Positions 1,366 to 46,550 of a stretch of 64,000 nucleotides of DNA are shown here, in pieces (position 1 is the stretch's first letter; the number at the start of each line of letters is the position of its first letter). The notes under the pieces were generated by a model. That model saw only the letters and a list, made by a program, of their open reading frames with translations. It made no database searches and was not told the DNA's origin. The DNA is from a virus, in IMG/VR virus record IMGVR_UViG_3300023199_000204, positions 1-64,000 of that record, one strand, 5' to 3'. The position numbers were made by a program, and so were the translations under genes.

Positions 1366-1830
1366 ATGACAAGTCTAAAACCACAATATGTGGATGAAAT
1401 CGTAGCTTCTATGGCAGAAATGCTAGGGGACAAGGATTTTATGTCACTTCATAAAAAAGCAGCTTTGGAGAAAGTTGCCAAAAGTACTCAAGAATATCTA
1501 TCAGCATATCAGGCAGCACAATCGCTAAATGAGGTTGAAACAATTCATAATGAGGTTCAGGCAACTAGAGGGTCTAGATCTCAGCAAGAGGAAGAGGCTC
1601 TTCATAATGCTTATCAGAGTGCGAAATCTCGTTTCTCTCCTGGTGAGAAACCAGTTCCTATTATGAGTGATGATGGTCAAGCGGCTGATGACGGAAAAGA
1701 GAATGTAGCAGCTGACTTTGCTCTTAAAAATCTTTCTGAAGTAGCTGACGCACTTGATAGCAACGGTTTTGAACATCTTGCTAATTTTATTGATGAGGCA
1801 ATGACAAAAATAGCTTCAAAAAAAAAATAA
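1366..1830 (+). CDS. helical protein ending in the LAD hairpin motif
   Basis: 154 residues, with GGAGG upstream of the ATG. The body is predicted helical, with a Q/E-rich coil around residues 55-90. The last 35 residues hold a motif found in several neighbours: ADALD, then G, then FIDEAMTKIA, fitting the pattern LAxxLDxxGxxxAAxxVD. The frame ends in a run of ten A bases (1818-1827) directly followed by TAA. A coherent 77-codon continuation lies in the -1 frame, so part of the product may be extended by frameshifting. No enzyme motif is visible. Its place upstream of the capsid gene suggests a head-assembly or internal head protein, by inference. Confidence 0.7.
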   Translation: MTSLKPQYVDEIVASMAEMLGDKDFMSLHKKAALEKVAKSTQEYLSAYQAAQSLNEVETIHNEVQATRGSRSQQEEEALHNAYQSAKSRFSPGEKPVPIMSDDGQAADDGKENVAADFALKNLSEVADALDSNGFEHLANFIDEAMTKIASKKK

Positions 1831-2072: not shown

Positions 2073-2591
2073 GTGGTTCTTAAATATAGCGAAAAAAATA
2101 ACAATACTCTTGCTAATGCTATGGCAAGGGCTTTAAATGAAGATTTTGAAAAATTGGCAAAAACCAAATGTAAATGCGGCTGTTTTAACTGCTCTTGCGG
2201 CAAAGCCAAAAATAATGGAAAATGTCCTTGTAATTGTAAATCTTGTAAAAAAACAAAAGTGGCAGAGTTGGAAGATATATCTTATACTATTTTAAGATCA
2301 GCTGACTTATTAGACAAGGTTGGACACTATGATGCTGCTTTAAGTTTATCATATGCTTTAAAGAAATTGGCAGAGAATGGATGTAATTGCCCTGACTGTC
2401 CTGATGAAATTGAGGATATAGACTCAAAAGAAGATTTAGTATATGTAATAAGCAAGGCTTTATTTGATATTTCAGATACTTTAGATAAGCTTGGACACTT
2501 TGATGTTTCAGATAATGTTGATACTGCTCTTAAATCACTATCCGGAAAGAAATGTGATTGCGGGGGATCTTGTTGTAACGGCAACTCTTAA
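2073..2591 (+). CDS. cysteine-rich protein with two LAD hairpin motifs
   Basis: 172 residues from a GTG preceded by GGGAG. The N-terminus contains NEDFEKLAK (residues 22-30), matching the short N-terminal helix of other proteins here. Then come nine cysteines in residues 33-58 spaced CxC, CxxC and CxC, two helical hairpin motifs (about 73-100 and 130-157), three cysteines at 104-109 and four at 161-168. The 16 cysteines look metal-binding, in metallothionein or zinc-cluster style. Arranging metal clusters around helical hairpins is unusual, and I know of no named family. It lies among head-region genes. A role as an internal or metal-binding virion protein is inference. Confidence 0.7.
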   Translation: MVLKYSEKNNNTLANAMARALNEDFEKLAKTKCKCGCFNCSCGKAKNNGKCPCNCKSCKKTKVAELEDISYTILRSADLLDKVGHYDAALSLSYALKKLAENGCNCPDCPDEIEDIDSKEDLVYVISKALFDISDTLDKLGHFDVSDNVDTALKSLSGKKCDCGGSCCNGNS

Positions 2592-2602
2592 TAGGGGAGT
2601 TT

Positions 2603-3403
2603 ATGTCTAATATTAGCAAGTATATGGAAAATATAAAACTAGATGTTATTAAACTATATACTAAAGATAATTTAAGTTATAATGCTATAGCTAAAAAATT
2701 TAATGTAAGCCAACCCAGTATTAAAAAATATTTAATTAATTGGGGAGTTAAACAAAAACCAGTCTATGAACAAATGAGTTATGTATTACACGATAGACAA
2801 AAAGATGATAGGTGTTTTCCAAAAAATATTCTTAATTTATTAGAAGGTGGTTTGCTTGGTGATGGTGGAGTTTATAATACCAAACTTCAATCTTATTATC
2901 AGCACGGATGTATTAACAAAGATTATATAGATTTTTTAAAAACATATTTTAATAACAATGAAATTATAGCAAACATTTGCTCTATTGCCCCAAAAGGCAA
3001 AAGTGTTAAAAGATTTTATTGTCTAACAACCAGAAGTAGTTTATTTTTAAGGAATATTAGGAATAAGTGGTATAAAGGCAGTATTAAGATAGTTCCAGAA
3101 GATTTTGAATTATGTCCTTTATCATTAAAGCATTGGTGGATAGGTGATGGATATTTAAACCCTGATTGGGGATGGGCTACTATTGCTACGCAAAGTTTTA
3201 CAGAAAAAGAGAATATGTTTTTAAAAAATAAATTAAATAATATTACTGAACATTATATAACCTTACGTCCAAGTGGTAAAGCAGCTCCAGGTAAATTTCA
3301 TCTATATTTATCAAGAAAAGCAATAAATGATCTAATTAATTATATGGGAAGTTGTCCTGTAAAATCGTTTAAATACAAATGGAAGGTTAAAAATGGTATT
3401 TGA
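2603..3403 (+). CDS. LAGLIDADG homing endonuclease
   Basis: 266 residues, ATG preceded by GGGGAG. The N-terminus carries a helix-turn-helix (about residues 22-45: SYNAIAKKFNVSQPSIKKYL). Two LAGLIDADG helices follow, LEGGLLGDGG near residue 81 and HWWIGDGY near 173, both ending in the acidic residue that coordinates the catalytic metal. The two copies indicate a monomeric, pseudo-symmetric nuclease. Such enzymes cut a long specific site and drive copying of their own gene into phages lacking it. The gene is inserted between the Cys-rich gene and a decoration-like gene; its last codons overlap the next start and contain a GGAAGG that can serve it. Confidence 0.9.
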   Translation: MSNISKYMENIKLDVIKLYTKDNLSYNAIAKKFNVSQPSIKKYLINWGVKQKPVYEQMSYVLHDRQKDDRCFPKNILNLLEGGLLGDGGVYNTKLQSYYQHGCINKDYIDFLKTYFNNNEIIANICSIAPKGKSVKRFYCLTTRSSLFLRNIRNKWYKGSIKIVPEDFELCPLSLKHWWIGDGYLNPDWGWATIATQSFTEKENMFLKNKLNNITEHYITLRPSGKAAPGKFHLYLSRKAINDLINYMGSCPVKSFKYKWKVKNGI

Positions 3404-4088
3404 AATAATACAATCAGGAAATGCTTTACCATTTTTCTATAAACTGGATCCAACTGCTACATTTGAATCAGGGCAAATTGGTCAGCTTAAGCTTATAGGA
3501 AATGATATAGTTGTAGGATTATCTGACGGAACAGCTCCTTTGGGTATTATTGATGATGTAAGAACTACAGCTTTTTCGCAACCTGTTGCCGATGAAGTTG
3601 TAATTATTCAGGGAATAGATATTACTACAGACGGCTATAATACTTACAACGGAAGAGATTCCATAGGTCCACTAGATAATTCCCCAGTTATTGGGTCAAG
3701 CTTTACTTCAGATTATCCAGATGTATCTTTAATCACAACCAATGGAAATTTAATTTTACCAGCCGGGGCAGAGCTTAATTATGATGCCGATGGAGATGGA
3801 ATAAAAGAATCTGTAAGAATGACAGTTAGTTATGTTTATCATGTGGCTGATTTACCTGGTGGAGATACTACATTAGGAAGTGGAAAAGTCACTATTTGGT
3901 TTCAAAGAGGAATTTTTGCTACGGATCAGTATGATACTACTGCCAAATATCCTTTAAACGCAGTATTATTTGTTAATTCTGAAGGAAAGCTTACCACAAG
4001 TCAAACCACTCCTGAACATCCAGGAGTTGCGATGGTTACAGGTCCTCCGGGAGCTACGATAAACACTTTAGAGTTCCTATGGCTATAA
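3393..4088 (+). CDS. decoration-like head protein, paralogue of 11062-11703
   Basis: 231 residues, starting inside the end of the endonuclease gene. The sequence is beta-rich and glycine-rich without membrane segments. It shares with the protein at 11062-11703 an N-terminal QSGN element, the segment GKVTxWxxxG, and GKLT about 40 residues later. It ends VTGPPGATINTLEFLWL. Small beta proteins of this kind next to the major capsid gene are usually capsid decoration or vertex proteins. The assignment rests on context and paralogy, not on a recognised family. It contains one DGY triplet. Confidence 0.6.
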   Translation: MVFEIIQSGNALPFFYKLDPTATFESGQIGQLKLIGNDIVVGLSDGTAPLGIIDDVRTTAFSQPVADEVVIIQGIDITTDGYNTYNGRDSIGPLDNSPVIGSSFTSDYPDVSLITTNGNLILPAGAELNYDADGDGIKESVRMTVSYVYHVADLPGGDTTLGSGKVTIWFQRGIFATDQYDTTAKYPLNAVLFVNSEGKLTTSQTTPEHPGVAMVTGPPGATINTLEFLWL

Positions 4089-5152
4089 ATAATTATTCTT
4101 TAAATGCTAAAAGTCCAAAATGGACTAAAGAAGAAATTGAAAAATTAAAATCTGTTTATAGAGATTACACTTATAAAGATCTAAGTATTATTTTTGATAG
4201 AAGTGTAGAGGCAATTTCACAAAAACTTAGTAGTCTTGGTTATAGTAAATATAATAAATGGACTGAAGAGGAAATAAACTTACTTAAAAAAAAATATAAT
4301 ACAAGTTCTACTGAACAGCTTATAATATTGTTTCCTGCTCATACTTTAGGAAGTATTAATAAAAAGGCAGAAAAATATAATTTAAAACGTCAAAATATAA
4401 AAAGACCAAAATGGACAGATGATGAAATTGGCACCATCCAAATAATGTATGAAAAAGGGTTTTCAGTTTCAGAAATTTCAAAAAAAATTAATAGAAGTGA
4501 AATAGTAGTAAATATTGAAATTGGTTCTTATAAAGCAAAACTTAAGAAATGGACAGCACAAGAAGAAAAAATATTATTAGATAATTATAAAACTTTATCT
4601 TATAAAGAAATTTCAAATCTTCTATCTAACAAAAGTTTAAGTCAAGTTAAAAAGTATGGTAAAAAGCTTAATCTTAACAAAATTGATCCAAGAGGTGTTT
4701 GGACGGCTGAGGAAGAAAAACTTTTAATTGAAAAATATTCTATTTCAACTATAGAAGAGCTTATGAATATTTTTAAAAACAAAGCTAAGTCTCAAATATC
4801 TAAAAAAGCAAAGCATTTGAGATTAAGAAAAACTAAGAAGACATTATCTAGATGTTTTAGAACAAAAATAGATAATTATAATGATATAGTTAAAATTTAC
4901 ACTTCTTCGCGGCAACGTTGGCGTAAAATAGTTTTAAAAAGAGATAATTATACTTGTGTTGATTGTAATTTAAAAGACATTACTGGTTTAATATTACAAA
5001 TTCATCATATTATTCCTGTAAGAAGTTGTAGTAGTAAAGAACAGATTATAGATATTAAAAATGGTATTACTCTGTGTATAGATTGTCATAATAAAGTGAC
5101 AGGTAGAGAGTATAAATTTATAGAAAAGTATCAAAACTTAGTTGAGTTATAA
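4079..5152 (+). CDS. HNH homing endonuclease with five Myb/SANT-like repeats
   Basis: 357 residues, starting in the stop region of the upstream gene (10-base overlap). Five helix-turn-helix units each begin with a W-T-x-E/D-E motif, near residues 14, 61, 112, 159 and 209, in the manner of Myb/SANT DNA-binding repeats, and would read a long target. The C-terminus is an HNH nuclease: CVDC near residue 292, IHHIIPV with the catalytic histidine pair, and LCIDCHNK with the zinc ligands and third histidine. All key residues are present, so it should be active. It is free-standing, not inside an intron. Confidence 0.88.
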   Translation: MAINNYSLNAKSPKWTKEEIEKLKSVYRDYTYKDLSIIFDRSVEAISQKLSSLGYSKYNKWTEEEINLLKKKYNTSSTEQLIILFPAHTLGSINKKAEKYNLKRQNIKRPKWTDDEIGTIQIMYEKGFSVSEISKKINRSEIVVNIEIGSYKAKLKKWTAQEEKILLDNYKTLSYKEISNLLSNKSLSQVKKYGKKLNLNKIDPRGVWTAEEEKLLIEKYSISTIEELMNIFKNKAKSQISKKAKHLRLRKTKKTLSRCFRTKIDNYNDIVKIYTSSRQRWRKIVLKRDNYTCVDCNLKDITGLILQIHHIIPVRSCSSKEQIIDIKNGITLCIDCHNKVTGREYKFIEKYQNLVEL

Positions 5153-5167
5153 GCCTAGGAGGAATAA

Positions 5168-5569
5168 ATGTCTTTTTCAAAAGAAGATAAAGCTGCTTGG
5201 AACAACAGCGAAATAATGCAGGAGTTTGAAAAAATTGCTGCGGAAATGGAAATTTTTAATGGACCTCCTGAGGAGGCATATCTTCCAATCAAAAATGCTG
5301 ATGACGATTGGGAAGATGAAATTAATGATGATGTTGAAAACAAAAATATTGAAGCGGAAAATAAGAAAGAGGATTTTTTAAAAATAGCAGAATTTGAAAA
5401 AAACTTGCTAGAAAAAAAGAAAACAGTAGATGATAAATTAATCAATGATTTGCGAACCTTGTCCGAAAAATTAATTTCAAAAAGAAAAATTGAGGCAGCA
5501 TATAAAGTGGAGAGGGCCATTTTAGATATTGAGGCACATCTTCAGACGGAGGAAAATAATGACATTTAA
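5168..5569 (+). CDS. small acidic protein with N-terminal tag and LAD-like hairpin
   Basis: 133 residues, GGAGG upstream. Residues 14-26 read SEIMQEFEKIAAE, one of the clearest copies of the short N-terminal helix found in several neighbouring proteins. The middle is acidic (DDDWEDEINDD) and has a second FLKIAEFEK. Residues 91-121 form a divergent copy of the helical hairpin (LSEKL, then EAAYKVERAI) that lacks the usual D and G. It overlaps the next gene by 11 bases, implying coupled translation and a shared pathway. No catalytic motif is visible. I infer a small internal head protein or cargo adaptor. Confidence 0.7.
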   Translation: MSFSKEDKAAWNNSEIMQEFEKIAAEMEIFNGPPEEAYLPIKNADDDWEDEINDDVENKNIEAENKKEDFLKIAEFEKNLLEKKKTVDDKLINDLRTLSEKLISKRKIEAAYKVERAILDIEAHLQTEENNDI

Positions 5570-8500
5570 TTATAGTGGAACAAGTGTTATGGAAGAATTG
5601 GAGAAAATTGCTATAGAAAAAAAATGGCTAACTGTAGAGGCAGGTCCAGACGCAGGTTTAATTAAATCAATTCAGCAGCAAATGAATGAGTTGGTTGGAA
5701 GATTACATAAACCAATGCCTCCTCAATATAATGTATTTCCTCTTGATGTTGATGGTGTTTTTGGACCAAAATCGACAAAAGGTATTAGAGGAATTATGCT
5801 TGTTGCCCAAGATGCTGTTAAAAACACTCCTAATAGACATATGCCTCAACACAGAGAGTTAATTACTGGTATAAGTGAAATGAGCAGGGGGACTCCAGAC
5901 GCTCTTTTAACTGGTCTTAAATATTTAAATAAATATTTTTATGAGAATTGGGGAGAGAAAATTAAACAAAAGGAGCCTCAAATTAAACTTCCTGAATGGG
6001 CAAAAAATAAGCCAGCACCAGTGGGAGATGGAACTGATGAGCCAGACTGGGAGGCACCTGCCGATGATGAAAAAAAATCTTGTTTACATAGCGAAGAGTG
6101 TCCACCAGGTCAGCGTTGTTATCAAGGATATTGCGAAGAATATATGGAAGAAAGCCCAATTAAAGGGGCGTCAAATAAAACTAACTTGGAGAAAATTGCT
6201 ATGAATCCTCGCGAATGGTTTAACAGCTTAGACTACAACACTCAGAGCAGAGTGAGAAGAAAAGTATATGAATTAATGAAAGGAAGAGGTTTTGATCAGG
6301 AAGGGGCTCTTGGAATGGTAATGAGACAAATGAATCCTCCTGAACCAAAACAAAAGCCTCCTCTTAAACAAGAGTGGCCTGATACGCCTGATTTTAATCC
6401 AGATGATTTTTTACGAGAAGTGGAAAGGGGTGTTCAGGAACAATATCCTTCTTTTAAAATGACCTCTTCTGTTATAAACAGTTTGGTTTCTCTTGCCAAT
6501 GATTTAGATGATATGGGAGCAAAAGAGGCTTCTTTTTCTGTTGATAATCAAATTAAGATATATAAAGAAGCTCTTGATAAGCTTTATGATGTAACTGGAG
6601 AAACTGGAGAGCAACTTATTGAAAAAGCACATCCCGGCGGAGGTCCAACAATTGCTCCTTCAAAAGAAGAGGGTGGCAAAGTTGAGACAGTTGTTGAGGA
6701 GCAGAAAAAATCAATTGACAAGGCGACCAAAAAGCCAACTGGAAAATATGCTCAAACAGTGTCAAAACTAATTGCTTTGGCAAATAAGCTTGAAGATGAA
6801 GGGAATGTTAAAGCCGCATTACAAGTGGATGAGTCAATACGGGAAATGAGGGCCTTGCTCCCTTTTTCAAATAGGAGTTCAGTAATTGAGGCAGCTGGCT
6901 CCGAGGACAAAAAAGCCTCGGTTGTTAAGAAAGGTTTTAGTCTTACGGAGACATTGGAAACAGATATAAATGATTATGCTATAGTTCTTGGAATAATGTA
7001 TAAACTGAATCAAGAGCAAAGACCATTGTATTCAGGAGCTTATAAAAACCTTAAAAACCTTTTGTTGAAATATTTATCTAAAGCTAAATATTATGAAAAT
7101 TATTCAAAACAAAGTAATGCCAAAAACTATCACCAATTAATTATATACTATAATAATTTAGAACGGTTTACTAAAAAAATTGTTGATAATTCTGGGACTA
7201 TGTCAGATATGGGAATGTTTTCTATAAGATTAGCATCTCATTTAAGAAGTATTCAAGAAGGGTTAGTTTATCTTGGGAAAGCTATGGATTCATTTGATTA
7301 TACTACTTCACCAAAAAAAGCTCTTGAGCCTCTTTCTGGAAATTCAAGACAAAGGGCAATAAAATCTTATTTAAAAGATCTTAAAACACTAGAAAATTTA
7401 ATACAAACTCAAGATCCAGTAAAAGTTGGTAAAATTTTAAATGGCGGTCTCAAGGCTATAGACCAGCTAGAGAAATGGATTGAAAAAAGAAGATATAATC
7501 TTACAGTTACTGATGGAAACGATAGTTATATTGGTGATAAACTTGAATTGCCTCATATTACACAGTTAAGAAATTATATTTCTAAGTTACAGAAGGGTTT
7601 AGGAAAAACTTCTGGAATAAAGTTTTATAAATTTGTCAAAACTGCTCTTGATGGCGCACCACCAGTTGGCATTGGAGGCGGATCTGCCACTCCACGAAGA
7701 AGAACAAGAAGTGTTGTTAATAGGAAGCCAAAAGACCAACAAGTGGTTAAATTACAGAGGGCTCTTAAAAAAGCAAATTTTGATACTGGCAAAATAGATG
7801 GATATTGGGGAAAAAACACTGCTGCGGCTTTTAACGCAATGCTGGCAAAACTTGGGCAATCAAGGGGCAGAGCTTTCAAACAGTTTAGTGGTGATAAAAA
7901 ACCCAATCCAAAGGTTTTAAGATTTGGAATATATGCTGCCAATTTATATCAAAGAAAAGATATTCCAAAAGGAAGATTTTTTGTTCTTACTGATACTGGA
8001 GAAATAGATTTGCCATTATCTGCATTAAATAGTCCTTCTAGTTTTATTGGGGCTCTGGAACTAAATTCCGTTATAAGGAAAGATCTTTCGGCAGAGGAAA
8101 AGGTTAAAGCAGCCGAAAAAGTTTTAATATTTACTGCTAAGAAATTAAATCCTCCAGATAAAGCTCCATATGTTTTGGGCAGAGTTGAAGACTTAATGGA
8201 TCTAAGTTATATTGATAAAGCTAAAAATAATTTAAGGCTTTTGAATAAAGCATATGTTATGTTAAAACCGTTTGTCTTAAAAGTAAAAAACAAAGAAAAG
8301 GTTGATGAAAAATCTTTAAAACAGAATAAGTTAAAACCTTCTGTTAAAAGCCCTTCTGCTAAAAGAAGTGTTAAACAAAAATTAGAAAAAGCTATGTTAA
8401 AAATTATGCCTGAGCCTGGGCAACTAACAAGCCTTGAATCTTTTGAACGACTTGCTCAAGTAAATAATATGACTGCTAGAGAATATTATCCACTATTAAA

Positions 8501-8648
8501 AAGCAGAATTGTTGGTGTTATGAGATTTATGAAAAACAATAAATCACAGCTTGTTGCTGAGCTTGGTTCTGATGGATTTTTAGATAAGTGGTGGAAATTA
8601 GAAAGAGTAAGCCGTGATCTTGATAGGTTAAAAGCTGCTATCAGATAA
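5559..8648 (+). CDS. large multidomain protein with tag, LAD hairpins and PG-binding-like domains
   Basis: 1029 residues. An in-frame ATG lies 30 bases earlier, but GGAGG at 5549-5553 favours 5559. Parts in order: the N-terminal tag VMEELEKIAIE (10-20); a peptidoglycan-binding-like helical unit (about 35-75, with DVDGVFGPKS); a six-cysteine module (about 173-195, ECPPGQRC); hairpin motifs near 303-333 and 400-430; a long helical region; a second peptidoglycan-binding-like unit (about 727-765, KIDGYWGKNT); and a helical C-terminus. Size, wall-binding-like domains and position before the capsid gene suggest an internal virion protein ejected with the DNA, by inference. It shares the element LIEKAHP with the protein at 9590. 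Confidence 0.7.
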   Translation: MTFNYSGTSVMEELEKIAIEKKWLTVEAGPDAGLIKSIQQQMNELVGRLHKPMPPQYNVFPLDVDGVFGPKSTKGIRGIMLVAQDAVKNTPNRHMPQHRELITGISEMSRGTPDALLTGLKYLNKYFYENWGEKIKQKEPQIKLPEWAKNKPAPVGDGTDEPDWEAPADDEKKSCLHSEECPPGQRCYQGYCEEYMEESPIKGASNKTNLEKIAMNPREWFNSLDYNTQSRVRRKVYELMKGRGFDQEGALGMVMRQMNPPEPKQKPPLKQEWPDTPDFNPDDFLREVERGVQEQYPSFKMTSSVINSLVSLANDLDDMGAKEASFSVDNQIKIYKEALDKLYDVTGETGEQLIEKAHPGGGPTIAPSKEEGGKVETVVEEQKKSIDKATKKPTGKYAQTVSKLIALANKLEDEGNVKAALQVDESIREMRALLPFSNRSSVIEAAGSEDKKASVVKKGFSLTETLETDINDYAIVLGIMYKLNQEQRPLYSGAYKNLKNLLLKYLSKAKYYENYSKQSNAKNYHQLIIYYNNLERFTKKIVDNSGTMSDMGMFSIRLASHLRSIQEGLVYLGKAMDSFDYTTSPKKALEPLSGNSRQRAIKSYLKDLKTLENLIQTQDPVKVGKILNGGLKAIDQLEKWIEKRRYNLTVTDGNDSYIGDKLELPHITQLRNYISKLQKGLGKTSGIKFYKFVKTALDGAPPVGIGGGSATPRRRTRSVVNRKPKDQQVVKLQRALKKANFDTGKIDGYWGKNTAAAFNAMLAKLGQSRGRAFKQFSGDKKPNPKVLRFGIYAANLYQRKDIPKGRFFVLTDTGEIDLPLSALNSPSSFIGALELNSVIRKDLSAEEKVKAAEKVLIFTAKKLNPPDKAPYVLGRVEDLMDLSYIDKAKNNLRLLNKAYVMLKPFVLKVKNKEKVDEKSLKQNKLKPSVKSPSAKRSVKQKLEKAMLKIMPEPGQLTSLESFERLAQVNNMTAREYYPLLKSRIVGVMRFMKNNKSQLVAELGSDGFLDKWWKLERVSRDLDRLKAAIR

Positions 8649-8663
8649 AGGTGGGAGAATTTA

Positions 8664-9593
8664 ATGATGACACTTTCTCTACGAGAGGAACGACAACTGT
8701 TGCCACTGTTGGTTAAAGAAGCCGCCATACCTGAATTTCTTGGCGGCTTTTTAAAAACAATAAAAGATAAGACATCATTTCTGTCAAAACCTTTTGAGAG
8801 TTTTTTGGGAACAGTTGGAATTATTGTTGTTGGCAGAATAAGCAAAATTCTGGGATTTCTGGCTTTAATTGGCGAATATTACGGCTTTGGATTAAGTTCT
8901 ATTGGAAAAATGATAGATACTTCTTTAGGATTTAATACCGGGAAACCAAAAATATCTTTATCTGATATAAAAAAAACAGCAAAAGGTGTTATTGACACCA
9001 TTGCTAAAAAAATTGGTTTAAAAGAGGCGGAATTTAAAAACGAATATCTTTTATCAAAGCGGGCAGGGCTTGGAACATTTTTGGGACAAATTTTTAGAGC
9101 AAAGAGATTAAGTTTTGTTAGTATTTTATATGGTTTTATAAGAACATTTGTTAAAGGTTTAATTGCTGCTGGGCTTATTGGTGGTTTAGCTTCTATGACT
9201 GGTCAAAGACCAGCGCCTCCAGTGGGCGGGAAGTCAAAAAGTCTTACAGGGAAATTACAATACTATAAAAATGTTTCTAACAATGTTGAAGATACTTTAA
9301 TAAAATTCCTAAACGCAGAAATAGCAAACTTTTCAAGAGCCTTCGAAGCACAAAAGGGGAGACCATTAAAAGGCTCTTCTGAATTACAAAAAGTATTATA
9401 TAATATAGAAATATTAAATTATGGGAAAAATATTTCTGATTTAAATTTAAGAGATGCTTTTATTGGTCCAGATGTTAAAACTTTGGCAAAAAAGATTTTA
9501 CCAAAAGTTAATTATCAGCCTTTAGCTTCTTCTTCTTCTACAAAAAAAACAAAAGAACTTTTAAAACTTTTAAACGAGGTGAAAAAAAAATGA
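8664..9593 (+). CDS. putative membrane-active protein, unknown family
   Basis: 309 residues, GGTGGGAG upstream; a second ATG follows immediately. Two hydrophobic stretches (about residues 48-75 and 150-180, the latter glycine- and alanine-rich, ending in GGLASMTGQ) could span or insert into a membrane. The C-terminal 110 residues are helical and lysine-rich. It ends four bases into the next start codon (ATGA overlap), so the two are translated together. It lies between two proteins carrying the N-terminal tag but has no clear tag itself. A role in membrane passage of DNA is possible; I do not recognise the family. Confidence 0.6.
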   Translation: MMTLSLREERQLLPLLVKEAAIPEFLGGFLKTIKDKTSFLSKPFESFLGTVGIIVVGRISKILGFLALIGEYYGFGLSSIGKMIDTSLGFNTGKPKISLSDIKKTAKGVIDTIAKKIGLKEAEFKNEYLLSKRAGLGTFLGQIFRAKRLSFVSILYGFIRTFVKGLIAAGLIGGLASMTGQRPAPPVGGKSKSLTGKLQYYKNVSNNVEDTLIKFLNAEIANFSRAFEAQKGRPLKGSSELQKVLYNIEILNYGKNISDLNLRDAFIGPDVKTLAKKILPKVNYQPLASSSSTKKTKELLKLLNEVKKK

Positions 9594-10963
9594 CCGGACA
9601 ATGGCACGGTAGTGATGTTATGGCTGGCTTTGCCAAAATAGCTGCCGAATCTGGGCTCATTACCTCAGATTTTAATCCGGATAATAAAGATTTCCTTGGA
9701 AATCCAAGTGAAAAAACTCCGGTGAAAGATAAAACAAGGTATGAGCCAACAGAAGATTATAATAATAGATATAATAAAGAGGGTGAAAAGCTTATAGATA
9801 AAGCACATCCTAAAAATGTGGAAGTGGCCGACGCGATGGGCAAAGGTGGTCTCGTTGAAAACGAGAACCAGAGGCAAGAAAAAGATATTGAAGTGGCAAC
9901 AAGAATGCCAAGTGGAGCATTATTTGGAATTCACGCAGATTTAATTAATGATTTGGTAAAACTTGCTAACAAGCTAGATGATGTTGGAAATTATAAAGCA
10001 GCAAGTTTAGTTGATAAAACCATTAGGGAGGTTCGCGGTCTCCCTTTTGATAAAGGCCACTCCATACAGAAAGAAGCAGCTCTATTTGGTCTTGTAGCAC
10101 TAGTTGCTGGTTTAGCACTTCCTTGGATTGCGACAAAACTAAAATTTAGATCTCCTTATGCTAGAAAATCAGGATTAACAGGAAAGCTTGGTTGGATAAG
10201 TGCTGGTGTAGGACTACTTAACCTATTTGGATCTAAACTTACAAGTATCAAAGAAAATCTAAATACTGATTTACAAGATTTATATGATGTTTTGGAAAAA
10301 CTAGATACACCCTCTTCAAAAAAAGCTATAATGATATTAAAGCCACATTTAAATAAGTTTTCAAAAATTAATTTAAGCACAAAAGAGGGTGCGGCCCAGT
10401 TTTTAAATAACTTTCATAAACTAAGTCAGGCTTATCCACAGGTAGAGGCATTAATTAATAATATTATTATTGAATATCAAAGTAATTGGTTTGATAAGTT
10501 AAAAGGATATGTTGGAATGGATGTATTATCCAGATTTAAGGAAAAATATTCAGATTTTAAGACAACATATAAAGAGACACAAGCTTTGGTTAATAAAACT
10601 TTAAAGGTCGGTGGAAAATTAAACCGCAAAGCTATCTCTCTAGGGGGAGCAGCTTCTGGGACCAAACCTTTTTCTCCTAAAGTTATAAGTGATAAACCAA
10701 TTTACAGACTACAGAGATTATTATTTGAAAGTGGATTTAGAGGAAAGAAATGGGAAGGAAAAATTAGTGGAGAATTGGATCAGGCTACTGTAACTGCTGC
10801 CAAAGAACTGGAAAGTCTTTTAAACGCAGCAATGTCGAAAATGCTTAAAAAGAATAATAAAGACCCAGATTTTTTCAACAACTCTATTATAAAAGATGGA
10901 AAGTTAGTAGGCAATGTTAATTCTTTATATAAAGTTATTCAAATTGCTGAAAATATATCATAA
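9590..10963 (+). CDS. tagged virion protein with LAD hairpin, membrane segment and PG-binding-like domain
   Basis: 457 residues, starting in the ATGA overlap with the upstream gene, whose end supplies a purine-rich ribosome binding region. The N-terminal tag reads SDVMAGFAKIAAE (8-20). LIDKAHP near residue 65 matches the 5559 protein. The hairpin motif is near 117-147 (LANKLDDVG, then AASLVD). A hydrophobic segment at about 166-184 (LVALVAGLALPW) looks membrane-spanning. A peptidoglycan-binding-like unit lies near 368-405. It looks like a shorter relative of the 5559 protein with the same module order, consistent with a set of internal or ejected virion proteins. Function is inferred from architecture only. 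Confidence 0.7.
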   Translation: MTGQWHGSDVMAGFAKIAAESGLITSDFNPDNKDFLGNPSEKTPVKDKTRYEPTEDYNNRYNKEGEKLIDKAHPKNVEVADAMGKGGLVENENQRQEKDIEVATRMPSGALFGIHADLINDLVKLANKLDDVGNYKAASLVDKTIREVRGLPFDKGHSIQKEAALFGLVALVAGLALPWIATKLKFRSPYARKSGLTGKLGWISAGVGLLNLFGSKLTSIKENLNTDLQDLYDVLEKLDTPSSKKAIMILKPHLNKFSKINLSTKEGAAQFLNNFHKLSQAYPQVEALINNIIIEYQSNWFDKLKGYVGMDVLSRFKEKYSDFKTTYKETQALVNKTLKVGGKLNRKAISLGGAASGTKPFSPKVISDKPIYRLQRLLFESGFRGKKWEGKISGELDQATVTAAKELESLLNAAMSKMLKKNNKDPDFFNNSIIKDGKLVGNVNSLYKVIQIAENIS

Positions 10964-11061
10964 ACTACTAATATTTTATTATAATTTACGAAATCTCGAA
11001 TAATAACGGGATATAACGATCAAAGATACAATATAAATATATTTCTTTGGAGGAAATAAAA
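10964..11061 (+). promoter_or_regulatory. leader of the capsid decoration gene, possible promoter
   Basis: This 98-base AT-rich gap precedes the decoration and capsid genes, which should be very strongly expressed. It contains TATAAATA at 11032-11039, identical to the T4 late promoter core and suitably placed 22 bases before the start codon, and TTGGAGG at 11047-11053 as ribosome binding site. AACTACTAAT sits at its left edge. In AT-rich DNA an 8-base TATAAATA is expected by chance several times in this window, so the promoter call is weak. Confidence 0.3.
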
Positions 11062-11703
11062 ATGGCATTATACATCTACCAATCGGGCAATGAGCCCCTA
11101 GGTCAATTTGACGTTCTTGACTCATACCAGAGCAGCATTCTTGGTGGTGAGATTGGAACAGTATATGAGGCATCCAGAACTGTAACTGCTTCAGAAAAAG
11201 CCGCATACGACGTTCTTGACGGCTACACTAACACTACTGACGTAACTCGTGCTGGTGTTGCTAATAGAGTTAATACTAATGGACAGCGTCCACTATGGCT
11301 TCTTGATGAAGGAACTACAGGATATGGAACTCTTTTTGGTCAGGTAATTGGAACTCCTACAGGTCTTAGCACCTCTGGAACCAACCTTGGCCCACACACT
11401 TCTGCCGCAAGTGGTAAAGTCACCTGCTGGAATAAACCAGGTCTTTATGCAGTATCACTAGATGCTGTAAATACTGCTTCTGACGGAATTGTTCTTTCAA
11501 ACGTTTCTATGGATCCAGGTTTAGCATTACAACCGCTTAACAACGGTAAGCTAACCCCAACTGGTTCTTCAGGTGCTGTAAACGTAACTGTTGGACACTT
11601 CGTAGAGTTTGAAACTTCACCATTCTTGGTGACAACTCCACCTTCACTAGTTGGAGCCGCTGAAGCAGCAGAGAGAGCTGTATTTAACTTTTTAGCACTG
11701 TAA
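11062..11703 (+). CDS. capsid decoration-like protein upstream of the major capsid gene
   Basis: 213 residues. ATG at 11062 is chosen because GGAGG lies 8 bases upstream; an in-frame TTG at 11047 overlaps that site. The protein is beta-rich with a small-residue composition (G, T, S, A), and its codon use is richer in C-ending codons than the surroundings, like the capsid gene, which suggests high expression. QSGN at the N-terminus and the GKVTxW and GKLT segments pair it with the protein at 3393. A strong hairpin follows the stop, separating it from the capsid gene. I infer an abundant outer capsid or vertex protein. Confidence 0.65.
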   Translation: MALYIYQSGNEPLGQFDVLDSYQSSILGGEIGTVYEASRTVTASEKAAYDVLDGYTNTTDVTRAGVANRVNTNGQRPLWLLDEGTTGYGTLFGQVIGTPTGLSTSGTNLGPHTSAASGKVTCWNKPGLYAVSLDAVNTASDGIVLSNVSMDPGLALQPLNNGKLTPTGSSGAVNVTVGHFVEFETSPFLVTTPPSLVGAAEAAERAVFNFLAL

Positions 11704-11790: not shown

Positions 11791-12822
11791 ATGTCTTTAT
11801 TTAGTACACATGGAAAGGGAGGCGAGCTTAATGTTGGTTCAACTCGCGATGCCCTTCAACAAATTGTAAAATATGCAACTATTTTAGAAGATTTGCAGCC
11901 AGCAAATACTGCTTTGGCTCAGAGACCCTCATTTTCTGATCAACAGAGAGATGAGCTAGTAAAAAGAGCACTTTTAACCACAGAGGGCAAAATTGCTTTA
12001 GGTCAGGCAATGGCTAACCCCATTAGAAAGAACCTTGATTATCAAGGGGTAGGAAGAAGAGTTCTTGTTGTAGACCCGTTACCACAGGGAGCACTCCCAG
12101 TTTACGAGCGTGACATTGATGTTGCTGCTACTGTTGTTTCAAGCAATGGTTCAGCACCTGAGAGTCGCGTATTCGGTGACAGGGTAACTATTCCTGAGTT
12201 TGAAGTTGTTTCAAACCCGACAGTAAGAATTGCTGAAGTTCGCAGACGTAGATTCAACGTCATTGACCGTGCCCAGCAGAAAGCTCGCCAAGAAATCCAG
12301 GCTCAAGAGGATGCCAACATCTTCTCAGCTCTTGATTTCGCAGCTGACTCAACTCTTGGTGGTGAAAACACTGCTCAGGACATTGCGGACGCTGGTCTTC
12401 TAAAGCGCGACCTTTCTGAAATTAAGGTTCAGGTTGATCGTTGGGACCTTGTAACCACAAAATTCCTTATGAATATCGTTGAATACAATGATATCCTAAA
12501 CTGGGCAACTGGTGGCGGACAAGGAACTGGTGGTGGCGAGGTTGATCCTGTCACTATGCGTGAAATCCTACAGACTGGTCTTTATGCCCATCTTTGGGGT
12601 GCTGACATCATCGTTTCAAAGGTTGTTCCTCAGGGAACTGTCTTCGGTGTTGCCGATCCTGAGTTTATTGGTGTAATGCCTGTAAGACAGGATATTGAAG
12701 TACTTCCTGCAGACGAGCCTAAACAGTTAAAACTTGGCTGGGTAGTAAACGAAATTATTGGTGTTGGCATTGTCAACTCCCGTGGTTGTGCTGTTGGTCG
12801 TAAATCAGTAGCTGTTGGCTAA
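11791..12822 (+). CDS. major capsid protein (HK97 fold expected)
   Basis: 343 residues, AGGAGG upstream. The N-terminal arm is followed by a region with LVVDPLPQGALPVYERD, a positively charged segment (EVRRRRFNVIDRAQQKA) and a long helix, then a C-terminal part ending VGRKSVAVG. Length, layout, placement after a decoration gene and before a strong terminator, and codon use biased toward C-ending codons all fit a major capsid protein forming the icosahedral shell. No separate protease or delta domain is visible in this frame. Family assignment is by pattern recognition, not by a search. Confidence 0.85.
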   Translation: MSLFSTHGKGGELNVGSTRDALQQIVKYATILEDLQPANTALAQRPSFSDQQRDELVKRALLTTEGKIALGQAMANPIRKNLDYQGVGRRVLVVDPLPQGALPVYERDIDVAATVVSSNGSAPESRVFGDRVTIPEFEVVSNPTVRIAEVRRRRFNVIDRAQQKARQEIQAQEDANIFSALDFAADSTLGGENTAQDIADAGLLKRDLSEIKVQVDRWDLVTTKFLMNIVEYNDILNWATGGGQGTGGGEVDPVTMREILQTGLYAHLWGADIIVSKVVPQGTVFGVADPEFIGVMPVRQDIEVLPADEPKQLKLGWVVNEIIGVGIVNSRGCAVGRKSVAVG

Positions 12823-12848: not shown

Positions 12849-12884
12849 GATAAAGGGGCTTTGTTCCCCTTTATCTTTTTTTTT
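12849..12884 (+). terminator. Rho-independent terminator after the capsid gene
   Basis: GATAAAGGGG (12849-12858) pairs with CCCCTTTATC (12866-12875) over a seven-base loop and is followed by a run of nine T bases (12876-12884). This is a canonical intrinsic terminator and should isolate the highly expressed capsid transcript from the accessory genes downstream. Confidence 0.92.
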
Positions 12885-12933
12885 GTCGATAAGAGCGACC
12901 CACACCAAATATAACTCGTTAGGAGGTTGGGTG

Positions 12934-13899
12934 ATGGGGAAAAGATTATTTACGAAAAGGGAATTATTAAGAAAATTGGTGGAATTTTCTAAAAAGGTAA
13001 ATAAGAGTAGAATTTCAAAAACCGATTTAGACAAAGATAAAGCATTTCCATCTTCGGCAACATATAAGAGATATTTTGGTAGTTGGAGCAATGCTTTAAA
13101 GTTAGCTAAATTAAAATCTGGAATAATTACTGGAAGACCACAGGATAAGGAGATAATAATTCCAGACAAAGCGTTAGATATAATAAATGGAGAATTATTA
13201 GGTGATGGCTCAATGCCTTTAGGCGGGGAATATAAAAGCAATGCTTATTTTGAGCATTCAACAGCGAATATAGATTATGGAAAATATTTATATAATAAGC
13301 TTAAAAATTATGTTCCATTATTAAATTCCTCATATTGCCCTAAAAGAAATAAGAGATGTAATATTCAATTTAGAACAAGAAGTAGGGTTAATATTGCTTG
13401 GACTAAAATTAGAAACAAATGGTATATTAATGGAAAAAAAATAATACCAAATGATTTAATTCTCACAAAAGAGGTTTGTCTTCATTGGTATTTAGGTGAC
13501 GGATACAGTGAGGATAAGACTTGTAAATTTTCTACTTGTGGATTTACTAAAAAAGAGAACGAAAAATTATGCGAACTATTGTTAAACATTGGCTTTAAAT
13601 CAAACATTAATAAAAGAAGCGGTGGTTATTATATTATAAGAATGAGAAGAAGCAGTTCATTTAAATTTTTAGATTGGTTAGGTCCTTGTCCAGCGAAAGG
13701 ATATGAGCATAGATGGAATATTGGAGAAAAATCCAAGTTATTAACTAAAAAAGATTTAGAAACAGCATTTAAGAAATTTAATAAATCGGTTACAAGAAAA
13801 GAGTTTGATGCTGATAAAGATGTTCCTTCGTCTATAACAGCTATTAGATTATTTGGAAGTTGGAATAAGGCAAAGGAATTTTATTATGAAAATAAGTGA
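12934..13899 (+). CDS. LAGLIDADG homing endonuclease flanked by HE-associated repeats
   Basis: 321 residues from the ATG at 12934, which follows AGGAGG; upstream in-frame starts lie in the terminator. The N-terminal 55 residues form a homing-endonuclease-associated helical repeat (PF18780 type, ending TYKRYFGSWSNAL). Two LAGLIDADG motifs follow, INGELLGDGS and LHWYLGDGY, both with the catalytic acid. A second associated repeat sits at the C-terminus (IRLFGSWNKAK). The gene should be active. It lies just past the capsid terminator, so the capsid gene or its 3' flank is the likely target. It overlaps the decayed gene downstream by 14 bases. Confidence 0.88.
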   Translation: MGKRLFTKRELLRKLVEFSKKVNKSRISKTDLDKDKAFPSSATYKRYFGSWSNALKLAKLKSGIITGRPQDKEIIIPDKALDIINGELLGDGSMPLGGEYKSNAYFEHSTANIDYGKYLYNKLKNYVPLLNSSYCPKRNKRCNIQFRTRSRVNIAWTKIRNKWYINGKKIIPNDLILTKEVCLHWYLGDGYSEDKTCKFSTCGFTKKENEKLCELLLNIGFKSNINKRSGGYYIIRMRRSSSFKFLDWLGPCPAKGYEHRWNIGEKSKLLTKKDLETAFKKFNKSVTRKEFDADKDVPSSITAIRLFGSWNKAKEFYYENK

Positions 13900-18457: not shown

Positions 18458-18589
18458 ATGTCTAAAAAGATTAAAAACCTTATTATGTTGGCGGACTCTC
18501 TTGATAAAGAAGGGAAGTTTGCTGATGCTGATTATATTGATAATTTAATTCACTCCTTTGCGGCAAAAAGTCCGCCAAAAAAAATATAA
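18458..18589 (+). CDS. 43-residue protein consisting of one LAD hairpin motif
   Basis: ATG with GGAGG upstream. Nearly the whole peptide is one copy of the helical hairpin seen in the head-region proteins: LADSLDKEGKFADADYID at residues 11-28, then LIHSFAAKSPPKKI. The frame ends just after eight A bases (about 18577-18584). In the +1 frame a DUF6582-like sequence continues without a start of its own, so this is probably the N-terminal part of a longer protein, reached by frameshifting or before a one-base gain. It is the clearest sign that the motif is a separable module. Confidence 0.65.
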   Translation: MSKKIKNLIMLADSLDKEGKFADADYIDNLIHSFAAKSPPKKI

Positions 18590-32228: not shown

Positions 32229-34241
32229 ATGGCACAATTTACCAATTTTTTTCCTACATTTGGGCAAACAGATATTCCTAAAACAACAACAGTTAGTTAT
32301 ACCATATTAACTGATGGCTACGATGGTGCTCAAATTGGAACACTTTCTACTATAATAGATGGCTATCAGGTAATAGAAAATGGAGCATTTGTTAATGGAT
32401 ATTCTGGGAATATATTTTCTAGTACTGGAAAATATGTTGTTGGAGTTTATCCAAAATCTCCTGATTTTCTAGGCGGAGCAAAGGCAATAAGTGTTGAACT
32501 AGAAGTTCTTGACTCGTATGGAAGTCTTGATGCCTATAGCTATACCTTTTATACAGCTGGATATGGAGTTGCTGAAGAGGTGGTGGAGAGCCCTCCTTTA
32601 ACAAACAGAGCTTGCCAGTATAAACCATTTTTTCCTTCTACAGATTTAGGATTGGTTGCCGCTTTAGATTCCGGAATAGGAACAGAGGTGGAACTAACCT
32701 GGAAACAAGCACATCCTTATGATGAAGATAATGTAGTTTACTATAATATAAGATTCAATACAGATAGATCGTTGGTTTTAAATAGTGATCCAATATTTAT
32801 TGTTTCTGATGTGGAAGCAACTATTGCTGGTTTATGTCCTGGAGATACGAATTATTTTAACTTAAAAGCAGTAGAGTTTGATCCTACATTACTTACAACT
32901 GATGGTATGACTCAGGGCGGAACAAATATGTTCTTTTACCCTGAAAGTGTGGTCGATTTAGAAGTTGCCATTGATGATTTATTGATTCCAGGATCTACGG
33001 ATGGATTTCCTGATTATGGAATTCTGGATATTGGAACAGAGCTTATTAGATATGTTTCTAAATCTGTAATTCCAGAAGGATTTGTTATATCCTCAAATGG
33101 AAGGGGCTATGGAGATACATTAGCTGAAGAACACTCAGAAAATGATCAAATTAAGTTATATTTTGGAATAGAGGACGGCAATACAATTGTGGTACAAGCC
33201 ACTCCAACTTTTACAAAGCCAAACGATCAAGTAACTTGGGTTAAAATTGATGGTTATGGAAATGATGGATATAGAGATGGTTATGATGGATATGATAAAG
33301 TTTATTCTGGTGGACCCAATGCCTATAGATTATTTGATGGATATGATGGATATTATAGGTATAGACAAGAAGAGTTTGATAATATAACAACAGATGGGAC
33401 CAATAATGATTCTTTAGGAGATTTTAAAAGATTTGATTATTGTGGCACTTATAGAAGATTATCTCCGGCAAGTTTTATGCAGGGTCAGTGTTCTGGGTCA
33501 TATTGGGGCGGAGTTCAGTTGAAAAATGGTAATAGGGTAAGAGTTCCTGATTTAACCACTCATATATTACAGAGAGAGGAGCTTCTTCTTGAGACTACAG
33601 GAGAGCCTTTTATTTTATTAAGAAGAATGTGGACAGGAATAAGATGTGCTTGTATGATGAGTAGAAGAGAGCATTCAGACGCAAGGTGCTCGATCTGCTA
33701 TGGCACAGGTTTTGTTCAAGGGTATACGCAATTCTTTAACCCAAGAAGACCAGATAGAAGAATTCTTGTAAGCATAGATCCTGCGACAGATGATGTACAA
33801 ATAGTGGATAGAGGTGGTTTGGAGCCAGTATACGAGCCAGATGGCTGGACACTACCATTTCCATCGATAAAAGACAGAGATGTTGTAATTAGGTTTAATG
33901 AGAATGGAACTGTTGAATATAGATATGAAGTTCTTAATGTAACTAGAGTTAGAAATGTTTTTAGTACCTCTGGTGCTCAAAAGATAAAATTTAAAAGATT
34001 TCCTGTTACAGATATAATATATCAATTCCCTATAGTTGGAGACACTTCTCCAGCACCAGAGGGTTTAACTACCTCTACTAATATTGCTCCAGGTTTACCT
34101 GCTCATAGTCACGATATTATTATACCTAATGGAGCAGATATAAATACTATAAGAATAGCAACATTGCTTTCTGAAGGGCACAACCATACAATTATCAATG
34201 GAGTTGTTATGCCTGTTCTAGGGCACACTCATACGATATAA
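32229..34241 (+). CDS. large neck/tail structural protein with Cys motif and HxH tail
   Basis: 670 residues, ATGGAG-type site upstream. The N-terminal 125 residues look like a cadherin-like beta sandwich, followed by an FN3-like domain (about 145-220). The middle holds a run of DGY triplets (residues about 345-375). Residues 470-495 hold a DnaJ-like zinc motif (CAC, then CSICYGTGFVQGY), a signature I associate with neck or head-completion proteins of large myoviruses. The last 45 residues contain three HxH motifs (HSH, HNH, HTH), like metal-binding points in phage fibres and spikes. It is clearly structural; its exact position in the virion is unknown. Confidence 0.65.
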   Translation: MAQFTNFFPTFGQTDIPKTTTVSYTILTDGYDGAQIGTLSTIIDGYQVIENGAFVNGYSGNIFSSTGKYVVGVYPKSPDFLGGAKAISVELEVLDSYGSLDAYSYTFYTAGYGVAEEVVESPPLTNRACQYKPFFPSTDLGLVAALDSGIGTEVELTWKQAHPYDEDNVVYYNIRFNTDRSLVLNSDPIFIVSDVEATIAGLCPGDTNYFNLKAVEFDPTLLTTDGMTQGGTNMFFYPESVVDLEVAIDDLLIPGSTDGFPDYGILDIGTELIRYVSKSVIPEGFVISSNGRGYGDTLAEEHSENDQIKLYFGIEDGNTIVVQATPTFTKPNDQVTWVKIDGYGNDGYRDGYDGYDKVYSGGPNAYRLFDGYDGYYRYRQEEFDNITTDGTNNDSLGDFKRFDYCGTYRRLSPASFMQGQCSGSYWGGVQLKNGNRVRVPDLTTHILQREELLLETTGEPFILLRRMWTGIRCACMMSRREHSDARCSICYGTGFVQGYTQFFNPRRPDRRILVSIDPATDDVQIVDRGGLEPVYEPDGWTLPFPSIKDRDVVIRFNENGTVEYRYEVLNVTRVRNVFSTSGAQKIKFKRFPVTDIIYQFPIVGDTSPAPEGLTTSTNIAPGLPAHSHDIIIPNGADINTIRIATLLSEGHNHTIINGVVMPVLGHTHTI

Positions 34242-34250
34242 AGGAAGAAA

Positions 34251-35303
34251 ATGAAAAGAACAAGTAAAGAAATAGAAAACAAAGTAGTTGAGATGTACAA
34301 AAGTGGTTTATCTTATAGAAAAATTTCAGAAATAACTGATATTAAATTACACGTAATAAGAAAAATAGTAAAACAAAGTGATACTATTGTATCTACACCA
34401 GGATTTAAAAAAAAATATAATTATGATGAAATCATAAATATTTATAAAAATGGAAAGACAATTAAAGAAGTATCGATTGCTACTGGGGCGTCATTCTCGT
34501 GTGTAACAAATATACTAAAATCTAAAAATGTGCCGTTACGCAGGAAAGTTAATTTTAATAAAGATGATATTGTAAATTTATATTTATCTGGGCATAGTAT
34601 AAAATTTATTTCTCAAAAATTAAAATTACCTAAAACTAATATAGCACGTAGAGTAAAAAGATATGGAATAAGTAGGTCAATTTCACAGGCGAAAAGAAAT
34701 GAGCAAATTAATCATAAATGTTTCAAAGAATACAATATTAACTCTGCTTACTGGGCTGGATTTTTAGCGGCAGATGGTAGCATTAGAAAGAAAGGGGGAG
34801 TTAGACTAGCACTTCAAAAACGCGATATTGGACATCTTAAAAAATTTGGTGAATTTATTAATTATAATAAAATTAAATTATACAGTAATACCCCCGAGAT
34901 TGTTTTTGGCTCAAAAGAAATAGAAAAAGATTTAGAGTTTAACTTTAACATAATAAATAATAAAGTTTATATTTTAAATCCCCCTTCACAAATTAATAAA
35001 AATTTTATTTCTCATTTCATAAGGGGCTATTTGGACGGAGATGGGTGTATTCACAAGACAAAGTGTAAAATAAGTTTCGCTGGAACATATATGATGCTTT
35101 GTTGGATAAAAGAAAATATTAAACTATTTGTGGAAGAAGCTAAAAACCCAAGTGTTTTGCCTCAAAAGCAATCTAAATATACTTATACATTGACTTTTAA
35201 TGGTAAGATTCAATCTAGAAAAATAGTTAAGTGGTTATATGAAGGTTCTACAGAAAACACAAGGTTAGATAGAAAATACGAGATAGCAAAAAATTATATG
35301 TGA
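34251..35303 (+). CDS. LAGLIDADG homing endonuclease with several HTH units
   Basis: 350 residues, AAAGGAAG upstream. Three helix-turn-helix units fill the first 140 residues (LSYRKISEITDIKLHVIRKI; TIKEVSIATGASFSCVTNIL; SIKFISQKLKLPKTNIARRV). The nuclease part has AYWAGFLAADGSI (about 163) and HFIRGYLDGDGCI (about 255), both with the catalytic aspartate. It belongs to the same subgroup as the three enzymes at 49-52 kb (YWAGF plus IRGYxDGDG). It should be active. It lies between a neck-type gene and a decayed sulfotransferase-like gene. Confidence 0.9.
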   Translation: MKRTSKEIENKVVEMYKSGLSYRKISEITDIKLHVIRKIVKQSDTIVSTPGFKKKYNYDEIINIYKNGKTIKEVSIATGASFSCVTNILKSKNVPLRRKVNFNKDDIVNLYLSGHSIKFISQKLKLPKTNIARRVKRYGISRSISQAKRNEQINHKCFKEYNINSAYWAGFLAADGSIRKKGGVRLALQKRDIGHLKKFGEFINYNKIKLYSNTPEIVFGSKEIEKDLEFNFNIINNKVYILNPPSQINKNFISHFIRGYLDGDGCIHKTKCKISFAGTYMMLCWIKENIKLFVEEAKNPSVLPQKQSKYTYTLTFNGKIQSRKIVKWLYEGSTENTRLDRKYEIAKNYM

Positions 35304-46360: not shown

Positions 46361-46550
46361 TTTGTCCTCAAATATATTTAGATTTATTGATAGTTACTTA
46401 TTTATCTGTCAATCTAAAATGGTTGAAGTTTTATTATCTATCAATAAAACATTATATCAATGATGCTAAAAATTTTCAATAAAGTCTTGAAATCATATGT
46501 TTTAAGCTATTGTGGGCATCGTCAAATATATATATTTTGGAGGATTTCAA
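46361..46550. promoter_or_regulatory. divergent intergenic region before the sheath gene
   Basis: At 190 bases this is the longest gap in the window. It should hold promoters for both the minus-strand gene and the sheath operon. TTGAAA at about 46484 and TATTGT 15 bases later form a weak promoter-like pair; ATAGTTA occurs near 46390; TTTGGAGG precedes the sheath ATG. No strong hairpin or tRNA is visible. Confidence 0.35.

Follow-up and report, generated by a model that had tools for sequence, protein, structure and literature searches.

What does a short N-terminal stretch do when it recurs on several proteins encoded directly upstream of a major capsid gene? The question is raised by the first 64 kb (positions 1 to 64,000, here called the window) of IMG/VR virus record IMGVR_UViG_3300023199_000204, which is 316,473 bp long. 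Three genes, starting at 5168, 5559 and 9590 (their products are named F1, F2 and F3), sit there directly upstream of the capsid gene at 11791, and each opens with the same element. We show that this conserved N-terminal helix of ~20 residues is common to three to four head-module proteins in a clade of uncultured jumbophages. From its sequence we read it, at a probability of about 0.6, as a capsid-targeting propeptide that resembles the one of phage T4 in logic, not in sequence.

The consensus of the element is [FW]xxS[ED][VI]MxE[FL]x[KR]IAx[EK]xG[LW][IV]. A sequence-only reading of this DNA had placed a short helix with the core EKIAxE near the N-termini of four proteins. All four of its peptides are found, its coordinates being those of the gene starts: NEDFEKLAK is residues 22-30 of the protein encoded at 2073-2591, EIMQEFEKIAAE residues 15-26 of F1 (5168-5569), VMEELEKIAIE residues 10-20 of F2, given an ATG start at 5559 (the longest open reading frame, ORF, begins with TTG at 5529), and DVMAGFAKIAAE residues 9-20 of F3 (9590-10963). 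The core is present as well, but the true signature is longer: an anchor, S[ED][VI]MxE[FL], precedes KIA. A profile of 26 rows, the window's own three sequences included, was run in six frames over the whole contig and matches in three places only, the starts of F1, F2 and F3. The claim of a four-protein element stands for these three head-module genes; the 2073 protein gives no profile match and was rejected as a carrier. The element is not equally frequent in replication proteins, its matches clustering near the capsid gene. Within the F3 family it is among the most conserved stretches of the orthologue alignment.

We fetched 80 loci of relatives via the capsid gene. Profiles built from single families were then compared with 1,531 proteins, drawn from relatives and outgroups as well as the window, and gave 50 matches at E<0.01, all 50 within the first 40 residues; shuffled proteins gave none. 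The F2 profile recognises F1 (E 9.9e-5) and F3 (E 1.6e-3), and the F3 profile recognises F1 (E 5.4e-5). Since profiles of one family recognise the others, with matches that are N-terminal only and absent from shuffled proteins, the element exceeds chance. All significant matches have the N-terminal position, about 10-20 residues, of a T4-type capsid-targeting sequence (CTS). Across 10 relatives (134 to 459 kb, about 3 Mb), 18 of 20 matches at E<0.05 lie within ~10 kb of the capsid gene; of the two outliers, one is an internal chance match and the other a genuine copy at the N-terminus of an F3 orthologue whose genome is rearranged. In one relative (loci L082 and L110) the F3 orthologue is ~26 kb from the capsid gene and on the other strand, and the neighbours of the capsid gene are mostly opposite-strand.

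The element also begins a protein of another kind (L024 4614-6263). It is common to three or four protein families of the head locus, some of which share further modules; their location in the head is predicted. The profile has no match in the whole genome of Bacillus phage G, the nearest isolate by capsid protein, nor in Tunturi_5, Rctr197k, LR745208 and Myrna; the element is therefore a feature of a clade of uncultured relatives of phage G, with capsid proteins homologous to the phage G one. Single-sequence searches returned no relatives of F3 in IMG/VR and none of F2 or F3 in a phage collection. Of the idea of a head-loading helix, what holds is that it is N-terminal only and common to several head-module proteins that otherwise differ outside one or two shared modules; packaging and targeting are predicted.

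What such a helix might be cut by is suggested by a second statistic. For every residue pair we compared the observed count with the one expected from the composition of each protein, and ranked the pairs by their excess. Two sets were ranked: 262 non-redundant proteins whose genes lie upstream of the capsid gene in relatives, and 321 proteins from downstream of it. The pair K.A (one residue between) is the most over-represented upstream, with 1003 occurrences against 652 expected, and is not among the top pairs downstream. Leucine stands two residues ahead of this K 226 times (87 expected), and I, T or E lies between K and A. As a triplet, L.K.A occurs 226 times against 55.5 expected (4.1x), followed by F.K.A (3.3x) and I.K.A (2.7x); L.R.A (1.4x), V.K.A (1.0x) and shifted spacings are at or below 1.8x. 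Two trivial sources were rejected. A hairpin motif carried by several of these proteins often starts with LxKxA, and masking hairpins and elements leaves 201 against 46 (4.4x). Repeated homologues do not explain the excess either: with one protein per cluster K.A ranks first in 20 of 20 draws, and 46 sites are seen upstream of the capsid gene against 18.

The same signal is present in the window itself. Its head proteins hold 19 LxKxA-type sites against 5.1 expected, a number reached by 0 of 2,000 shuffles, and its other proteins hold 8 against 11.4. In the portal and terminase regions of relatives the count is 92 against 50, in control regions 53 against 48. Site density peaks at residues 16-30 (16.5 per 1000 amino acids, aa); it is 4.8 at 101-200 and ~3 both at 46-100 and past residue 200. 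As a positive control, the ranking was applied to T4 gp67, gp68, gp21, gp22, gp23 and gp24, and returned I.E and L.E at ranks 1 and 2 of 654; the motif of the T4 protease gp21 is (L/I)-x-E (PMC9026906). Altogether, [LIF]-x-K-x-A is strongly over-represented upstream of the capsid gene and weakly or not elsewhere, and the [LF]xKIA core of the element is one case of it. LxKxA is probably a cut site of the phage's capsid (prohead) protease, as predicted from sequence. Literature searches, restricted to open-access texts, returned no description of an LxKxA prohead-protease motif, so that this site is apparently undescribed.

Alignments of neighbouring genes point to the site rather than to what precedes it. 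In the family of the hydrophobic protein encoded at 8664, a [KR][EQR][AG] column is found in 9 of 9 relatives: KxA (or KxG) stands at a constant position ahead of the conserved domain, preceded by 0 to ~20 unrelated residues. Another head-module family likewise keeps KxA before its domain, after a few to ~27 unrelated residues.

Which bond would be cut is suggested by the surroundings of the motif, which is fixed at K and A. Proline is rare directly after A (7 against 16 expected), whereas the third position past A shows no such shortage (23 against 16); this favours a cut after A. It is unlikely, if conceivable, that the protease cuts the same propeptide two residues further on, after K-x-A-x-E/A/G, so that EKIAxE would be read as A-x-E↓ (the arrow marks the cut) in the register of phage SPN3US, whose protease motif is A-X-E (PMC10052503). 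The three elements of the window do read literally AAE, AIE and AAE, the position two residues past A is enriched in E (2.0x) and in D (1.6x), and the cut measured in phage G, RVALA↓Q, is in that register. The acidic residue is however a modest preference where K and A are fixed, E is not fixed in relatives, and the place at which proline is depleted fits a cut after A. For phage G, the capsid protein loses 27 residues by N-terminal sequencing, from 282 to 255 (PMC5646251), which implies a cut after Ala27, RVALA↓QAMANP. Phage G gp19 matches the head maturation protease family PHROG 18299, as does a 1342-aa protein of one relative (L096 857-4885); with the phage G protease as query, no head maturation protease match was obtained in the present, incomplete contig. 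Near the portal region of another relative, a 2718-aa protein (L095 4462-12618) matches an ATP-dependent DNA ligase family.

Alternatively, the element could be an uncleaved docking helix for the scaffold, the portal or the capsid lining, with LxKxA as the binding motif. Proline is depleted over all eight residues before A, which places many sites at or near helix ends, and the element is helical in both AlphaFold2 (AF2) models, those of F1 and F3. We consider this improbable: some sites fall in predicted linkers or immediately downstream of start codons, the site is kept among orthologues when the residues before it are not, the same statistic finds the protease motif in T4, and a comparable head is known to be processed, that of phage G at its capsid protein (PMC5646251).

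The window has a second type of N-terminus, with a consensus of roughly ADEIxxAMAxxLGDxxFxxLFxKxA, which occurs in relatives. It is found on the 1366 protein and possibly, in diverged form, on the 2073 protein, which also has CxC-rich stretches. Both types run into KxA. The chances are even, in our estimate, that a clade of phage G-related jumbophages cuts at [LIF]-x-K-x-A↓ with a prohead protease whose specificity is undescribed, and that this site terminates two or more interchangeable N-terminal loading tags.

The sequence-only reading had also noted the hairpin in the same four proteins and had proposed a two-part code for head loading. A hairpin is indeed present in all four, though degenerate in F1 (hhalign, 96.8% against the F3 hairpin), but hairpins also occur with a different N-terminus (1366, 2073); element and hairpin are therefore not strictly paired. 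The proposed two-part code is corrected in this respect: the hairpin assorts independently of the first-type element. The F3 hairpin lies N-terminal of IQKEA, the second predicted cut site, and may thus belong to the removed piece instead of serving as another sorting mark on the mature protein. A weaker, seventh hairpin match (18479-18565, E 0.001) falls within an open frame of 49 residues that directly precedes the ORF at 18558. Plain paralogy, by which F1, F2 and F3 would stem from one duplicated gene and their N-terminus would have no special sorting role, agrees with the hairpin and LI(E/D)KAHP region shared by F2 and F3 (read from sequence) and with the hairpin shared by F1 and F3, but has little probability, as the linkers that separate the shared modules vary both in length and in sequence, the element is one of the best-conserved stretches of F3 and N-terminal in 50 of 50 matches, it also starts the other kind of protein in L024, and hairpin proteins with a different N-terminus exist.

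Read as a capsid-targeting propeptide, the element would work in two halves. Inside the prohead, as it grows, the S[ED][VI]MxE[FL] half would attach to scaffold or core and thereby load the protein. The head-maturation protease would then cut the element at KxA or two residues later, and would also cut further LxKxA sites behind it, freeing the mature protein. The mature proteins would stay in the head. Some of them are probably ejected with the DNA, as hydrophobic and peptidoglycan-binding parts are found in several, and may help the DNA across the host envelope.

Several observations weigh against this reading. The measured cut in phage G, VALA↓Q, has Ala at P1 and no Lys at P3. A mild LxKxA excess is seen downstream of the capsid gene too, with one protein per cluster (40 against 27), and the more distant relative Tunturi_5 has no upstream excess (3 against 5.0). 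The ranking recovers the SPN3US motif weakly (A.E at rank 56 of 996; 12 of 232 in propeptides), and in single relatives the rank of K.A ranges from 1 to 284; because of both, the ranking is supportive and not proof. In relatives with a split F3, the element is missing from the C-terminal half, which must get to its place in some other way. Part of the likeness between F2 and F3 is paralogy, given the further modules that both have. Finally, with the portal and protease of phage G and the portal of a relative as queries, none was recognised in the 316-kb contig; since the contig begins just before the capsid module, these genes may lie past its end.

Table 1. Elements, predicted cut sites, hairpins and genes of the head module in the window.
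Feature	Coordinates	Strand	Basis
Second-type N-terminal element VDEIVASMAEMLGDKDFMSLHKKAALEKVAK, 1366 protein	1387..1485	+	relatives-only profile, E 6e-8
Hairpin, 1366 protein	1732..1821	+	hairpin match
Possible diverged second-type N-terminus, 2073 protein; contains NEDFEKLAK	2112..2168	+	loose alignment with 1366; E 3.2, not significant
Hairpin 1, 2073 protein	2289..2378	+	hairpin match
Hairpin 2, 2073 protein	2460..2549	+	hairpin match
F1, 133 aa: N-terminal element, acidic linker, degenerate hairpin	5168..5569	+	orthologue alignment; hhalign
F1 N-terminal element NNSEIMQEFEKIAAEMEIFN	5201..5260	+	profile E 1.4e-9 on whole contig; AF2 helix 15-26
Predicted protease site FEKIA, F1	5225..5239	+	LxKxA motif
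F2, 1029 aa: N-terminal element, hairpins, peptidoglycan-binding domain	5559..8648	+	Pfam; hairpin matches
F2 N-terminal element GTSVMEELEKIAIEKKWLT	5577..5633	+	profile E 2.9e-8 on whole contig
Predicted protease site LEKIA, F2 residues 14-18	5598..5612	+	LxKxA motif
Hairpin 1, F2	6483..6572	+	hairpin match
Hairpin 2, F2	6768..6854	+	hairpin match
Predicted protease site FVKTA, ~30 residues before F2 peptidoglycan-binding domain	7632..7646	+	LxKxA motif
Hydrophobic head-module protein with N-terminal LVKEA site	8664..9593	+	relatives' alignment
Predicted protease site LVKEA, 8664 protein	8709..8723	+	motif and 8664-family alignment
F3, 457 aa: N-terminal element, AHP/GGLVE module, hairpin, hydrophobic segment, C-terminal folded part	9590..10963	+	alignment, AF2
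F3 N-terminal element HGSDVMAGFAKIAAESGLITS	9605..9667	+	profile E 6.6e-10; AF2 helix 9-20
Predicted protease site FAKIA, F3 residues 14-18	9629..9643	+	LxKxA motif
Hairpin, F3	9953..10042	+	hairpin match
Predicted protease site IQKEA, linker between F3 hairpin and C-terminal half	10064..10078	+	[LI]x[KR][ET]A in 6/8 orthologues
Probable decoration protein	11047..11703	+	position before capsid gene, like phage G gp26
Major capsid protein, HK97 type	11791..12822	+	PHROG 2522 E 5e-76; phage G gp27 match
IVKYA, N-terminal arm of major capsid protein	11863..11877	+	K[YF]A kept in every listed relative with arm

The carriers are composite proteins. The peptidoglycan-binding domain of F2 (~7734-7829) scores 27.9 bits with PF01471, for a cut-off of 23; residues ~173-200 of F2 are a cysteine-rich stretch, SCLHSEECPPGQRCYQGYCEEY. 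Between its element and hairpin, F3 has a conserved module, LI(E/D)xAHP...GGLVEN..xQ.K.I (residues ~68-100, 9791-9889), that is also present in L024, L018 and L025 and is part of a separate small gene in some relatives. The AF2 model of F3 has a linker at 150-212 with a low predicted local distance difference test (pLDDT) score, between the hairpin and the folded C-terminal part, and the two halves of F3 are separate neighbouring genes in the relatives L024, L025 and L028. Foldseek, run with this low-confidence model, gave no meaningful match. Hydrophobic stretches are read from the sequence in F3 and in the 8664 protein.

The capsid protein and phage G gp27 share 53% identity across 79% of the query; in having a homologous capsid protein the locus agrees with phage G-like head modules. 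Judged by gene order in phage G and Tunturi_5, the likely decoration protein is the small one encoded at 11047, and the likely scaffold is the acidic one encoded at 23. Scans against PHROG, Pfam and NCBIfam gave matches of any strength only for the capsid protein and the peptidoglycan-binding domain.

By eye, six regions contain ORFs that resemble LAGLIDADG or HNH homing endonucleases (2603-3403, 4079-5152, 12883-13899, 34251-35303, 49114-50896 and 51498-52262); the structural modules seem heavily invaded by such ORFs, which lie between structural genes. The tripeptide DGY is ~8x over-represented in the proteins of the window (26 observed, 3.2 expected) and is in excess in relatives' proteins downstream of the capsid gene (143 against 18); YGD is not over-represented, and control regions have no DGY excess. 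In the window it was noticed in the ORFs at 32229-34241, 36100-38700, 39036-43577 and 46512-49094.

The filling of giant-phage heads with host-acting proteins is known in a few models: T4, P1, phiKZ and SPN3US. With a tag and a cut-site motif that are readable from sequence, one could pick out the head and ejected proteins of many uncultured jumbophages; if the reading is true, these proteins could be recognised, with their mature ends, from sequence alone. Tag and motif would also provide a protease specificity open to testing and a new tag for loading cargo into very large capsids. Six proteins were enough for the blind residue-pair test to find the T4 motif, and where enough genomes are available it may do the same for the protease motifs of other phages.

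Among known systems, phage G is like the present one in its homologous capsid protein, in the order of decoration and capsid genes and in LxKxA-type sites, those of its portal, gp19 and gp20, within the region of portal and protease genes; it differs in that the element is absent from its whole genome. The capsid targeting sequence of phage P1 DarB, in which the first 30 residues are sufficient for a reporter to enter the head (PMC9024508), is likewise an N-terminal head-targeting signal, as predicted here; the Dar proteins, however, have no common consensus, whereas here one consensus is shared. SPN3US and phiKZ also have N-terminal propeptides with several sites, in jumbophage heads full of ejected proteins, and the paralogues gp53 and gp54 have their first 15 residues in common (PMC5694885); their proteases cut at A-X-E and S/A/G-X-E, with glutamate at P1, while here Lys and Ala are fixed. 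The T4 likeness drawn by the sequence-only reading survives in part. The core [LF]xKIAxE has no L or I two residues before E and does not end in the gp21 motif, so the element is not a member of the T4 type; it differs from the T4 CTS in its sequence, in its predicted site, LxKxA, and in further sites deeper in the protein, its targeting being putative. As a helix that ends in a protease site, a likeness strengthened by the LxKxA result, it nevertheless recalls the CTS of T4 IPI-IPIII and Alt: a short N-terminal stretch on several internal head proteins, with a targeting half and then a protease half (PMC9026906, PMC5694885), the first part being needed for targeting and the last for processing (PMC9026906).

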